Origin: Oxalobacteraceae bacterium
GTDB taxonomy: Bacteria; Pseudomonadota; Gammaproteobacteria; Burkholderiales; Burkholderiaceae_D
Length of the DNA stretch: 64,000 nucleotides
Assembly: GCA_027490255.1 (NCBI GenBank)
Contig: JAIXYM010000064.1
Coordinates: forward strand, 1-64,000
Direction of reading: 5' to 3'
Shown here: piece after piece, positions 4,101 to 61,161 of the stretch
How positions within the stretch are numbered: position 1 is the first letter of the stretch
How the letters are laid out: every line of letters starts with the position of its first letter
Made by a program: the position numbers and the translations under genes
The notes under the pieces: generated by a model
The model's database searches: none
Seen by the model: only the letters and a program-made list of their open reading frames with translations
What the model was told of the DNA's origin: nothing

Positions 4101-5814
4101 TGGTCACATCTGAGGTAGTCGCAACCAGATTAGTTCCCACGACGCTAACAGTCACGCCCGGGTTCGGAATTCGTGTACTCAACTGGGCGTTCAGATTCGT
4201 TGCCAAAGCCGCAAGAGTGGTCGTCGCTGGCGCGGGAGTGAGACTGTACGCAGTACCGTTAATCGTAATAGCAAAGTTTGTAAAATCAGTCGTTGCTGGC
4301 GTGGTGCCAAAACGTGGACCTGTGATAGTGGCCTTGTTCAGTGAAGCTGCATACTGACCATCTGCATCAATTGCCGCCTTCAATTGTTCCAGAGTCGCTC
4401 CGGAGAAAATATCGCCAGCAATCTCGATCGCATACGACTCATCCGCATCGGATACAGGAACACGTAGCTGCGTGATGTTACCGCCTGTGGTGGATTCTAG
4501 GATGTCAGCGCTATCAACCGCATTCGCTGTAAACACAGTTAATTCGTAATCGTCGGCAATCAATGTCGGGTCACCCGAGTTACCCGTTAGCTGCACGGTC
4601 AGCTTGCCTGCGACGTTAGTTGCCGTGTACTGACTACCCGCGTTGATTTTAGACACCAGATCATCCAGATCTGCCCCTACGTAGGAATCGGTAGCGATAC
4701 TTAACTTCAGGATATTGCCGCGCTCTTCCGGTTCGAATACCAGTTTGGTCACTGCTTTTTGCTGGGCTGCTGTTTCATCAGGGATGGTGGCACGTGTGTT
4801 CAGAATATAAGACTGCGCATTCACGTCAGAGAATACGGCACCTTTGGTAGGGTTAGTATCGACCCAGGCATTCACGCGATCCGGAAAATCAATACCGTTT
4901 TTCCACTCATTCACCAGAGGTACTGGCAATGGGCTGGCACTTTTTGCTGTGGCAGGTGTTGAGGCGATCGGATTTTTCAGGTCGTCCAGGTTGAACAATT
5001 TGGTCACACCACGGGCAATATCCTGCGGCGGAATGTCCGATTCAGATCGTACTTCGCCGTACTTGTTAACGAACTGTGCCTCTCCAGATTTATCTTTGGA
5101 TTGAATCAGCAATTCCTGAAGCTTGGTGTCACCAATATAAACAAAGGTCTGCCATTTGTTGCTGGGATCTTCAGGTTTGGCGACTTGAGTTTTACGGTAA
5201 TACACCGTAGCCAGGTAGTCGTTACCACCCGCGTCATAGACGGTGATGGCGGTGGTTTTGTTATAGGTAGTTGGATCGTTTTTATCAAACGGCAGTGTTG
5301 GAATCTTGGCGTCCGCGGGCAGGTTCAGGCCCAGCTGAATGTTGGTGGTCGCCACAGCATCACCGGTGGTTGAACGCGGAATGATCAATTTAGACAGGTT
5401 ATCCAGATCAGCTTTGCCGGAGGAGTCAACGGACGCTGCGATCAGTGCCTGGCCCGAGCCATTGACCACCGCATACGAGTCATTCAACAAGAAGGTACCG
5501 TTTCGGGTGTAGATGTCCTGCAGACCGTCGGCCGATTTCAGCGGGAAGAAGCCATCACCGGTAATCGCGATATCGAGCGAGTTTGCCGAGAATTGAATAT
5601 TGCCCTGACTGAATTCCTGACTGACCTGTTTCAGAGCCGTACCCTGACCTACCACCGATGATGCTTTCTGCAGTGGTGAAGTTGCGAAGATGTCACCAAA
5701 GTCAGCGCGCGAGCGCTTGAAACCTGTGGTACCCACGTTAGCGATGTTATTACTGGTCACGGACAGCTGCGAGGTTGCGGCGTTCAGACCGGTCAACGAG
5801 GTATAGAAAGACAT
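1132..5814 (-). CDS. flgE: Giant flagellar hook protein FlgE (1560 residues)
   Basis: FlgE polymerises into the hook, the universal joint between rod and filament. Both ends are canonical. Residues 1-45 hold the D0 helix (SNNIANVGTTGFKRSRADF), and residues about 1505-1560 hold the C-terminal D0 helix (NVDLTNELIELITAQRNFQA). The length is about 3.5-4 times the usual 400-450 residues. The extra roughly 1000 residues lie between about 350 and 1330 and contain a recurring motif of the type YxGxDLxxLxxxINAxGxYTA. It occurs near residues 377, 468, 659, 803, 864 and 992. A second motif, LTGxxGDPTxIxxxYxL, recurs near 409 and 693. The pattern resembles the flagellin/hook IN motif that decorates surface domains of axial proteins. 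AGGAGAAG precedes the ATG. The reading frame is intact throughout. Confidence 0.95.
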   Translation of the reverse strand: MSFYTSLTGLNAATSQLSVTSNNIANVGTTGFKRSRADFGDIFATSPLQKASSVVGQGTALKQVSQEFSQGNIQFSANSLDIAITGDGFFPLKSADGLQDIYTRNGTFLLNDSYAVVNGSGQALIAASVDSSGKADLDNLSKLIIPRSTTGDAVATTNIQLGLNLPADAKIPTLPFDKNDPTTYNKTTAITVYDAGGNDYLATVYYRKTQVAKPEDPSNKWQTFVYIGDTKLQELLIQSKDKSGEAQFVNKYGEVRSESDIPPQDIARGVTKLFNLDDLKNPIASTPATAKSASPLPVPLVNEWKNGIDFPDRVNAWVDTNPTKGAVFSDVNAQSYILNTRATIPDETAAQQKAVTKLVFEPEERGNILKLSIATDSYVGADLDDLVSKINAGSQYTATNVAGKLTVQLTGNSGDPTLIADDYELTVFTANAVDSADILESTTGGNITQLRVPVSDADESYAIEIAGDIFSGATLEQLKAAIDADGQYAASLNKATITGPRFGTTPATTDFTNFAITINGTAYSLTPAPATTTLAALATNLNAQLSTRIPNPGVTVSVVGTNLVATTSDVTKRISAMTLTTTAVGANAGTDGGGQLTIDLGTASEINPNYSFISGANGTPSPETAKTQKITELTFTIDAGTGATDPGMQSLMLTVGNDTYTGEDVASLEENINRAGKYTATLDTTANTLVIGLTGDVGDPTQINSSYKLSHITGSLQADTITGLATEINVDETLEYEASVNASGQLVLKPKDGVNPFVIPEFSMTASFAEGFEIRPESKTTSSMSYKVEYLSDTFTLDLGSERYQGVSIDELIDEINGVSQVSADPGDFSETLNAGVITTLRVAVNSDVKDLTMTFGSAPNERTFTGYDIASLIDEINADGTYTAVATNSGMTIERGTATAINATYTLEYLSKDEDRIYDATTIGNSDGSTTITINAHGAGATIPSISSLTASALGVETGADDIVFDLNVDGSATPVTIDLSYLKDLATTKKFTGIEIAREITNVINKSYGDERYFDFTAFKPTEDSTEADMFRLTVGGVSKPIVLNQGQFGIKDLTAVTLQDAISAIQAVVDKEVEFPSPVTVGYDPVRQTFTFKPEDDVDVSIRSFTTARNELFGLSDVESTIDPDTGTWGKSVLPNGGLITSAEDQRYGVEVKFDETTGEFLISSGTTGDTSSIAISKSSALANFLFGFVQGDTPTEVDTSSTPLRGITSTPAVLKGNAIGINLDNKFRVDGSNNQFVVTVDNVTGLITMPEKTDYTMEEFRQTLEDRVNALADNFGRSVNGVKLEIVTNPGTNTKSFVFKTGTTGDDSFLKVSANSIWGLDGLPSARGTTSRWIEPPQAQNADGFPLYVDRDGLETSDPGTFSEDETRDLWSPIFLDKGELTFDTAGNLRSPLEAIAFKSTTIGDSGATLQFAIDYVSSTQYSSPFSVLKQDQNGRPEGDLIGVDIGDDGLVSASYSNGSQKSLAKIVLVNFASPTGLRQIGDASYYATSKSGDAKYGEAGSAGFGTVRAGARERANVDLTNELIELITAQRNFQANAKAIETNNTLTQAIINIRS

Positions 5815-7646: not shown

Positions 7647-8017
7647 AACGACGCTGGAACCCGGCTTTCGCCGGGATGACGGTTCTGAGGCCAACCGGAT
7701 TTCAAATGTCATCAAGTGAAGGTGACGACAGTACTGCTTGAGGCGACCCTTAAATTTTCTACCGTCATCACTTGCATGTGATGACTGCTGCGTGGGCGTA
7801 TCGCACGCGATCCGAATTCCCCACTCGCTCCCGGCGAAAGGGTGTAGCGGGGGTTTCAGACCGCATGCGGTCTGCCCGCGGAACGGTAATGGCGTACTCG
7901 CCATTACGCGCCCTGCAAGGGTAGCGGGGGTTTCATGCAGCATGCTGCATGCCCGCGGAACGGCACTGGCTTGCAAGCCAGTGCGCGCCCTGCAAGGGGG
8001 GATCCAGCGTCTTTCGT
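7647..8017. repeat. Mosaic palindromic intergenic element, copy A
   Basis: This 371-base non-coding element lies between flgB and the 3' end of the LysM/transglycosylase-like gene. It has inverted ends (ACGCTGGAACC at the left, GGATCCAGCGTCTTTCG at the right). Inside is a chain of palindromes: a CCCGGC/GCCGGG hairpin (7660-7675); an 8-bp stem around TTGCAT (7764-7785); a perfect 18-bp palindrome centred on GCATGC (7857-7874); a 9-bp stem with a TACT loop (7886-7907); a second perfect 18-bp palindrome centred on GCATGC (7934-7951); and a perfect 22-bp palindrome centred on TTGCAA (7963-7984). Two tandem units share the linkers CCCGCGGAACGG and GCGCCCTGCAAGGG but carry different palindromes. 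Short reading frames here are by-products. Confidence 0.85.
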
Positions 8018-34443: not shown

Positions 34444-34626
34444 GAAGCAAAGACGCTGGATCCCCCCTTGCAGGGCGCGCACTGGCTTGCAAGCCAGTGC
34501 CGTTCCGCGGGCATGCAGCATGCTGCATGAAACCCCCGCTACACCTTGCGCCGGGATGACGTTTGAAGAATGGTTGGCCTCAAAATCGTCATCCCGGCGC
34601 AGGCCGGGATCCAGCGTCTTTCGTTG
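34444..34626. repeat. Mosaic palindromic intergenic element, copy B
   Basis: 183-base element in the convergent gap between the orphan gene and motB. Terminal inverted repeats read GAAGCAAAGACGCTGGATCC at the left and its near-complement GGATCCAGCGTCTTTCGTTG at the right. Inside, in inverse orientation to copy A, are the perfect 22-bp TTGCAA-centred palindrome (34479-34500), the perfect 18-bp GCATGC-centred palindrome (34512-34529) and a CCCGGC/GCCGGG hairpin near the right end (about 34593-34608). The linkers are the same as in copy A. It carries only one of the two tandem units of copy A. Confidence 0.85.
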
Positions 34627-39937: not shown

Positions 39938-40230
39938 GAAGCAACGACACTGGATACCGGCCTGCGCCGGTATGACAGTTTTGAGGCCAACAGAGCTTAA
40001 AACGTCATCACTTGCATGTGATGACAGTTTTGAAGCCAACAGACCTTAAAACGTCATCACTTGCATGTGATGACTGCTGCGTGGGCGGATCGCATGCGAT
40101 CCGAATTCCCCACTCGCTCCCGGCGAAAGGTGGAGCGGGGATTTCAGACCGCATGCGGTCTGCCCGCGCAACGGTCATGGCGTACTCGCAATGGCGCGCC
40201 CTGCAAGGGGGGATCCAGTGTCTTTCGTTG
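39938..40230. repeat. Mosaic palindromic intergenic element, copy C
   Basis: 293-base element in the convergent gap between metY and the hupE-like gene. Its ends read GAAGCAACGACACTGGATAC and GGATCCAGTGTCTTTCGTTG. Both ends carry ACACTGG/CCAGTGT, where copies A and B carry ACGCTGG/CCAGCGT. The first hairpin reads ATACCGGC / GCCGGTAT, where copy B has ATCCCGGC-type arms, again a paired change. A unit of about 48 bases with the 8-bp-stem GTCATCAC/GTGATGAC palindrome is tandemly duplicated. Next are a perfect 16-bp GCATGC-centred palindrome (40087-40102) and the perfect 18-bp palindrome shared with copy A (40145-40162). The remaining bases to 40375 show nothing recognisable. Confidence 0.85.
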
Positions 40231-60888: not shown

Positions 60889-60970
60889 TCCTCGCAGGGA
60901 GCACACTGGTTTGCAAGCCACACCCGTTTCGCGGGTATGCAGCTAGCCGGACGAATTTCCCTCTACATCC
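60889..60970. repeat. Decayed copy D of the mosaic palindromic element
   Basis: About 80 bases align without major gaps to the central part of copy B (GCAGGG, CACTGG-TTTGCAAGCC, CGTTTCGCGGGTATGCAGC, CCCTCTACA), but both palindromes are broken by substitutions. No terminal repeats are visible. The rest of the 60781-61161 gap shows a short AGAGC/GCTCT stem and no gene. Confidence 0.65.
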
Positions 60971-61161
60971 TCGAGAGCAATCGCTCTGCTCTACGACTTT
61001 GCTTTGCGGCGCTGATTTGTCCATTCGGATAAAAAATTGTGCCACAGATATTTTTTGATGAAATACCTTGCGAAACATCAATTCAAGTTTAAATTTCCAT
61101 GCAGAGCGGATAGCTTCGGCGCAATGAAAGTTCTACAGTGGCGCCCATCATCCAAGAGCTT

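Follow-up and report, generated by a model that had tools for sequence, protein, structure and literature searches.

A gene-less two-hairpin unit in the loops of CGTC-type REP dimers: a candidate mobile element of Burkholderiales

According to the parts of PMC3733652 drawn on here, REPs of the CGTC-1 form carry a CGTC tag, an 8-bp stem beginning with AT, a 4-nt loop, and a CCA tail, occur mostly as head-to-head dimers, are described without a dedicated transposase, and associate with other repeats in mosaic arrays, Neisseria NIME/dRS3 being named among them. The Caulobacter CIR repeats, as portrayed in the portion of PMC2229807 used here, are small, gene-less, and intergenic, with two base-paired arms and a linker. 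We describe here a gene-less unit, K, found within REP loops in the window, a 64,000-nucleotide stretch that is part of the 3.09-Mb draft genome of an Oxalobacteraceae bacterium. The initial annotation had proposed a mosaic family of palindromic elements with three copies (A, B, and C) and a decayed fourth (D), all of which are present with slightly shifted ends; the family stands, but what had been taken for one element is two, a CGTC REP dimer of a known type and, inside it, a distinct unit with a wider distribution.

The outer arms, judged by their sequence, are CGTC-type REP dimers of the known kind, fitting the CGTC tag, the AT-initial 8-bp stem, the 4-nt loop, and the CCA tail alike. The pattern CTGGATCCCRGCNNNNGCYGGGATGAC finds 131 exact REPs in the genome to which the window belongs and none in the reversed control, and many of the listed neighbors (an impression rather than an exact count) lie 54–60 bp apart on opposite strands, as head-to-head dimers. 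Copy A, used as a 371-bp query, has 105 matches in the same genome, and covariance model R1 scores seven units in the window, with rough E-values of 1.6e-20 to 8.5e-7. In elements A, B, and C alike a K unit fills one REP loop (Table 1); the palindromes labeled P and Q prove to be a K-type unit in reverse, a second subtype that is scored by the K-built model. The arms of these elements are inverted repeats, direct repeats having been detected only at some of the hprK and zwf copies discussed below. By eye, 2 or 3 bases are gone from one REP arm in K-filled REPs, so insertion was not perfectly clean.

Table 1. Positions of the elements and their component units in the window; E-values are those of model R1.
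Feature	Position	Strand	Basis
Element A: CGTC-REP arms around one reversed unit and two tandem K units	7650..8014	+	sequence, R1
Left CGTC-type REP, element A	7650..7682	+	sequence; form as in the part of PMC3733652 used
Reversed unit, Q/P subtype, element A	7763..7825	-	R1, E 3.5e-8
K unit 1, element A	7838..7920	+	R1, E 5.6e-20
K unit 2, element A, tandem	7921..7997	+	R1, E 1.6e-14; 77-bp direct repeat
Right terminal arm GGATCCAGCGTCTTT, element A	8000..8014	+	sequence
Element B: CGTC-REP dimer holding one K unit	34449..34621	-	sequence, R1
K unit, element B	34466..34548	-	R1, E 1.6e-20
Element C: CGTC-REP arms, one reversed unit, and one K unit	39944..40225	+	sequence, R1
Q/P subtype unit, element C	40044..40122	-	R1, E 1.3e-10
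K unit, element C	40126..40208	+	R1, E 9.1e-18
Copy D: decayed K unit	60890..60972	-	R1, E 8.5e-7

As modeled, K is 83 nt long, has no gene, and combines two variable hairpins with conserved unpaired motifs. An alignment of 112 distinct copies begins with a closing stem GGYG/CGCC followed by two unpaired bases; hairpin 1 then opens with GCRGG/CCYGC, carries a 5-nt bulge (GGTTT) on its 5′ side only, and continues with seven further pairs, the middle five of which vary widely, to a loop of about 4 nt; a conserved joiner, GNARCG, leads to hairpin 2, with eight pairs (six widely variable) and a loop of about 6 nt; and the unit closes with the conserved tail CTGCAAGG. Most stem pairs are thus nearly free in sequence and the unpaired motifs are fixed, also across genera in which the host repeats differ, although linker conservation is partly built in, 62 of the 112 aligned copies having been found with an exact linker pattern that leaves the stems free. 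The alignment comprises 23 copies from this genome, 24 from relatives, and 65 from named records (the latter including the 62 that fit the linker pattern); 132 regular-expression matches in all gave 127 when one was kept per 3′ end, and 112 distinct copies were aligned after identical, truncated, and odd-length ones were dropped. The proposal that different palindromes are exchanged at equivalent slots between constant linkers is borne out. The GCATGC and TTGCAA centers are there as described, but they are hairpin loops plus their closing pairs; the slots are hairpins rather than duplex palindromes, because non-palindromic and one-base-longer loops occur in other genera. Folding programs return the three-way junction as the minimum-energy structure for three of four copies as RNA and for two of four as DNA, the copy L081 folding differently as both.

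Covariation in the inner hairpins is far above chance. Across the 112 copies, 97.4% of 2680 pair cells are standard pairs, compared with 78.4% after shuffling (500 shuffles), and both-side changes number 547 against a shuffled mean of 169 and 18–81 with slid partners. On a minimum spanning tree of the 94 copies of uniform length, 59 both-side changes keep a standard pair and one does not, alongside 63 one-sided changes; within the genome of the window (22 copies entered) there are 14 both-side changes, 12 of them keeping the pair, and 27 one-sided, where shuffling the partners gives a mean of 1.7 both-side changes and a maximum of 8 in 2000 trials. An excess of paired over unpaired changes, which the initial annotation had made the touchstone of its claim, is therefore seen in the inner hairpins. 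The terminal repeat behaves otherwise: the outer pair GACGCTGG/CCAGCGTC as against GACACTGG/CCAGTGTC, formerly the leading example of covariation, agrees between the arms in 17 of the 32 elements scored in this genome and disagrees in the other 15, and so does not generalize.

K is not confined to this host. The exact linker pattern occurs in 79 stretches of named genomes, from Cupriavidus, Undibacterium, Noviherbaspirillum, Lacisediminimonas, Glaciimonas, Herminiimonas, Methylophilus, Methylotenera, and Propionivibrio, as well as from unclassified Gallionellaceae, Oxalobacteraceae, Burkholderiales, and Betaproteobacteria. Under the stricter filters applied in both model surveys, matches (E 1e-6) were found in 169 of 294 genomes and 31 of 44 genera sampled from the family of the window, and in none of 368 other genomes sampled from the class. 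Which repeat serves as host depends on the lineage: in this genome it is a CGTC REP, in some relatives (L042, L051, L056) a repeat of the GTAG type, and in Cupriavidus, Noviherbaspirillum, and Undibacterium a long hairpin that has its own arms; K is thus independent of the REP that carries it. No exact match was found in viral contigs, nor any match in phage records for one Cupriavidus unit used as a query; in plasmid records one Cupriavidus query matched only two Cupriavidus metallidurans replicons, at 11 places each, and the stretch that was fetched is unannotated. In Cupriavidus sp. YR651 the terminal inverted repeats of the host seem to differ between copies, both arms together (L060, L061, L066, L077), and in the same strain two whole host elements stand in tandem with identical K units (L119). 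In a Propionivibrio stretch (L080, 4205–5829), a K unit at 5261–5343 has matches to domains D1-D4 of a group II intron on one side and, on the other, a weak match to the 3′ part of the intron.

Comparison with relatives, as the initial annotation had suggested, reveals sites that lack the element at loci A and C and at hprK. All that relative G005 has at locus A is an 18-bp palindrome built from the two termini; G018 has a short, different stretch there that possibly includes a remnant. Locus C exists in several states: a REP with the reversed unit and without K (G005), reversed unit and K together (G017), K without the reversed unit (G012), and the reversed unit with another insert (G018). 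This last insert (L178, contig C47) lies in the REP loop, is bounded by the inverted repeat CCCACTGCTGTCCGGAACAT, is flanked by copies of GCGAAAG, and holds a REP-like dimer of its own. Element B is missing, by eye, at the matching place in G005, G017, G018, and G012, where divergence of the intergenic DNA on either side leaves the exact ends unassignable.

In genera with few copies the unit stands at gene 3′ ends: at hprK (L257, L259, L261, L262, L268, L270; name confirmed by NCBIfam for L261), at zwf (L256, L258, L275; confirmed for L256), and adjoining tmRNA genes (L260, L266, L267). In L266 and L267 the tmRNA gene and the K-like unit are separated by DNA that includes a short, inverted copy of the tmRNA T-arm. 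Direct repeats of 16–28 bp surround several hprK copies, the longer ones inflated by tandem units, and repeats of 11–13 bp surround two zwf copies. We searched 40 genomes of one related genus and fetched 30 hprK loci, of which 19 have between one and three units where the gene stops, at its stop codon, 10 have no recognized unit (L320, and perhaps L316, with an apparent remnant), and one (L307) is cut by a contig end; among the ten unfetched genomes nine give a match that begins only at the expected end of a unit, as it would if none were there, and one gives a partial match. Successive units are spaced every 103–106 bp, and with each comes a separate copy of the hprK end. Of 22 bases compared in L291, 5 differ between the gene-proximal and the distal end, differences that we read as synonymous from the codons, and the distal end is identical to the vacant allele of L309, so that the gene end seems to come with the unit, an arrival that on such comparisons may have proceeded by site-specific or by homologous recombination. 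Hairpin types are also recombined at hprK: for the commonest pair of types, hairpins 1 and 2 occur together in three of the four possible ways, and L259 has a combination that closely resembles the remaining one. IS110-family elements lie in a palindromic repeat adjoining hprK in L310 and L315 (by eye; NCBIfam identification for L310).

The strand on which K folds can be approached through wobble pairs. At three pairs G-T outnumbers A-C by 132 to 3, a sign that it is the K strand that folds; at the other 21 pairs G-T and A-C are equal (30 each), as expected of resident copies that decay without selection. Among 92 copies with a gene on either side, 9 lie inside a frame of at least 150 aa, whereas the neighboring genes converge around 35, run in tandem around 38, and diverge around 10, and the units in tandem settings are divided between gene sense (17) and the opposite (21). 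With replichores assigned by GC skew, 21 of 26 copies on four replicons, counting family-survey copies and two from sampled stretches, are oriented alike with respect to replication (p 0.0025, kinship ignored); two replicons stand outside this count, one with a skew near zero and three of five copies in the same sense (G142:C3), the other with four of five on the + strand, two of them where the local skew has the other sign (G031:C10). With this bias, by our reasoning, the lagging-strand template would carry the complement of K, and replication sense and wobble evidence are in no simple agreement.

Our preferred reading, to which we give a probability of about 0.55, is that CGTC-type REP dimers here hold in their loops a gene-less mobile unit, defined by its shape and moved in trans as a folded strand. 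It sets out from direct observation of a family, its fold and covariation, its host range, its presence or absence at individual sites, its tandem arrays, the gene ends it carries, and its swapped hairpins. On this foundation, i) a putative recombinase acting in trans would recognize a folded, single-stranded cassette; ii) the cassette would be inserted by preference at hairpin tips, such as REP loops, and at gene 3′ ends; iii) folding would be required for movement, so that selection would act at the moving step, compensated changes would accumulate in the moving lineage, and resident copies would decay; iv) recombination between units would exchange hairpins; and v) templated repair of one arm from the other might sometimes regain symmetry. 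We consider such a folded-strand cassette the best account because of the fixed unpaired motifs, the complementary but nearly free stems, the hairpin targets, the gene-less length, and the variable presence, and we count in its favor the few units between divergent genes, the lack of bias in gene orientation, the shared replication sense of 21 of 26 copies, and the parity of G-T and A-C at most pairs. Against it stand the G-T excess at three pairs, which is also expected of RNA; the presumed lagging-strand placement of the K complement, which does not fit simply with folding of the K strand; the two hprK-end alleles, which could spread by homologous recombination; the bases gone from one REP arm; the partly built-in linker conservation; and the searches for a mobilizing enzyme, which found none. 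A RAYT/TnpA mobilizer, as initially suggested, is not borne out: Y1_Tnp (PF01797, E 0.001) has no match in this genome or in four other unit-rich genomes of the genus, compared with matches in 13 of the 16 other genus genomes (8 of the 13 past the cut-off), a contrast with a chance of 0.003 if genomes are independent, although the five, which are 71 to 99.6% complete, may share ancestry. The integron integrase model TIGR02249 exceeds its cut-off in none of 21 genomes of the genus. Genes neighboring the 79 named-record loci form no transposase-like cluster by eye among the clusters from at least three organisms, and the open reading frames between two units in L063 and L109 look ordinary on inspection.

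The initial annotation had allowed for selection, gene conversion, or movement through a hairpin; there is some evidence for each, and they are not fully separated here. Arm conversion alone, in which one arm would be rewritten from the other by foldback template switching, with symmetry but without any selection for the fold, is in our estimation unlikely. It would explain the REP arm of G005 at locus C, where two bases depart from the usual arm and both match the other arm of that REP, and the paired transversions between near copies such as L008 and L016, which differ at four positions in total. But conversion would erase asymmetry, and different genera have kept the one-sided 5-nt bulge as well as the joiner and the tail; the asymmetric loops of the Q/P hairpin are oriented one way in 23 cases and the other in 1 (1 undecided, n=25), and loop inversion was not found; and copy pairs differing at no more than three sites show 37 one-side and no both-side changes. 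Arm conversion probably also takes place, and the persistence of bulge, joiner, and loop orientation implies that it is not the whole story. Somewhat less likely again is integron-like or other site-specific recombination, with the units as cassettes whose att site would be a gene end or a REP hairpin and with a tyrosine-type recombinase acting in trans. The insertions at the hprK stop codon, with their carried gene ends, regular tandems, and direct repeats there and at zwf, and the copies adjoining tmRNA genes all suit it; the integrase search and the REP-loop copies, which by eye have no comparable direct repeat, do not.

An improbable alternative is that K is a structured RNA or an mRNA 3′-UTR element whose RNA fold is selected at each resident site. 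The wobble excess at three positions, the compact three-way junction favored by RNA folding, and the hprK copies in three genera would be in keeping with such a role; the parity of G-T and A-C elsewhere, the near-even strands in tandem gene pairs, and the variable presence inside one genus speak against it, as does Rfam, which has no match in the window at the gathering score and, for seven loci at E 0.5, a lone overlap of a unit with EFASI (L073) on the other strand at 27.1 bits, below the cut-off of 51.2. Least probable of all, and in our opinion highly so, is a REP/BIME moved by a RAYT (a Y1 HUH transposase), as with GTAG REPs: the REP hosts, the scarcity in divergent intergenic regions, and the replication-linked orientation would agree with it, but the distribution of Y1_Tnp among unit-rich and other genomes runs the opposite way.

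A bolder form of the folded-strand reading is possible, though we advance it tentatively: K could represent a new class of gene-less mobile DNA in Burkholderiales that is encoded by shape, a two-hairpin strand whose unpaired motifs would be read and whose stem sequence would be largely a matter of indifference to a recombinase acting in trans, which would insert it at hairpin tips and gene 3′ ends, bring replacement gene ends along, and build gene-less arrays. Whatever the enzyme, a unit that sits in CGTC REPs, is present in over half of the family's genomes that were sampled, and varies in presence within one genus offers a concrete substrate for an enzyme hunt. Its hairpins, which do not resemble RNA genes, further provide a natural example of compensatory change in DNA, and a system that could separate selection for shape from arm-to-arm conversion.

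In integrons, the folded strand of attC is recognized, with free stem sequence, fixed unpaired bases, and cassettes in arrays. The likeness of K to attC would be one of function only, since K cassettes are gene-less and occur in a genus without an integron integrase over the cut-off. The REPs compared here agree with CGTC-1 REPs in tag, stem, loop, tail, dimers, and the lack of a dedicated transposase, but the parts of PMC3733652 consulted describe them without the in-loop K unit that is present here. Neisseria NIME/dRS3 mosaics similarly combine CGTC-1 REPs with other repeats in arrays, whereas the unit described here lies inside the REP loop, has a covarying two-hairpin fold, and uses other hosts too. 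Compared by description with Caulobacter CIR, as given in part of PMC2229807, K differs in its nested hosts, nearly free stems, and gene-end arrays. A literature search that included sequence strings, with most subscription journals outside its coverage, found no description of the K unit; the outer arms are known, and K has neither an Rfam match at threshold nor a literature description that we found. Its conserved two-hairpin shape, its changeable but still paired stems, and its presence or absence at corresponding sites in relatives hint at a very small type of mobile element that has yet to be described. We would place K as a variant among the small bacterial interspersed repeats, and as possibly something categorically new if a shape-specific recombinase exists.
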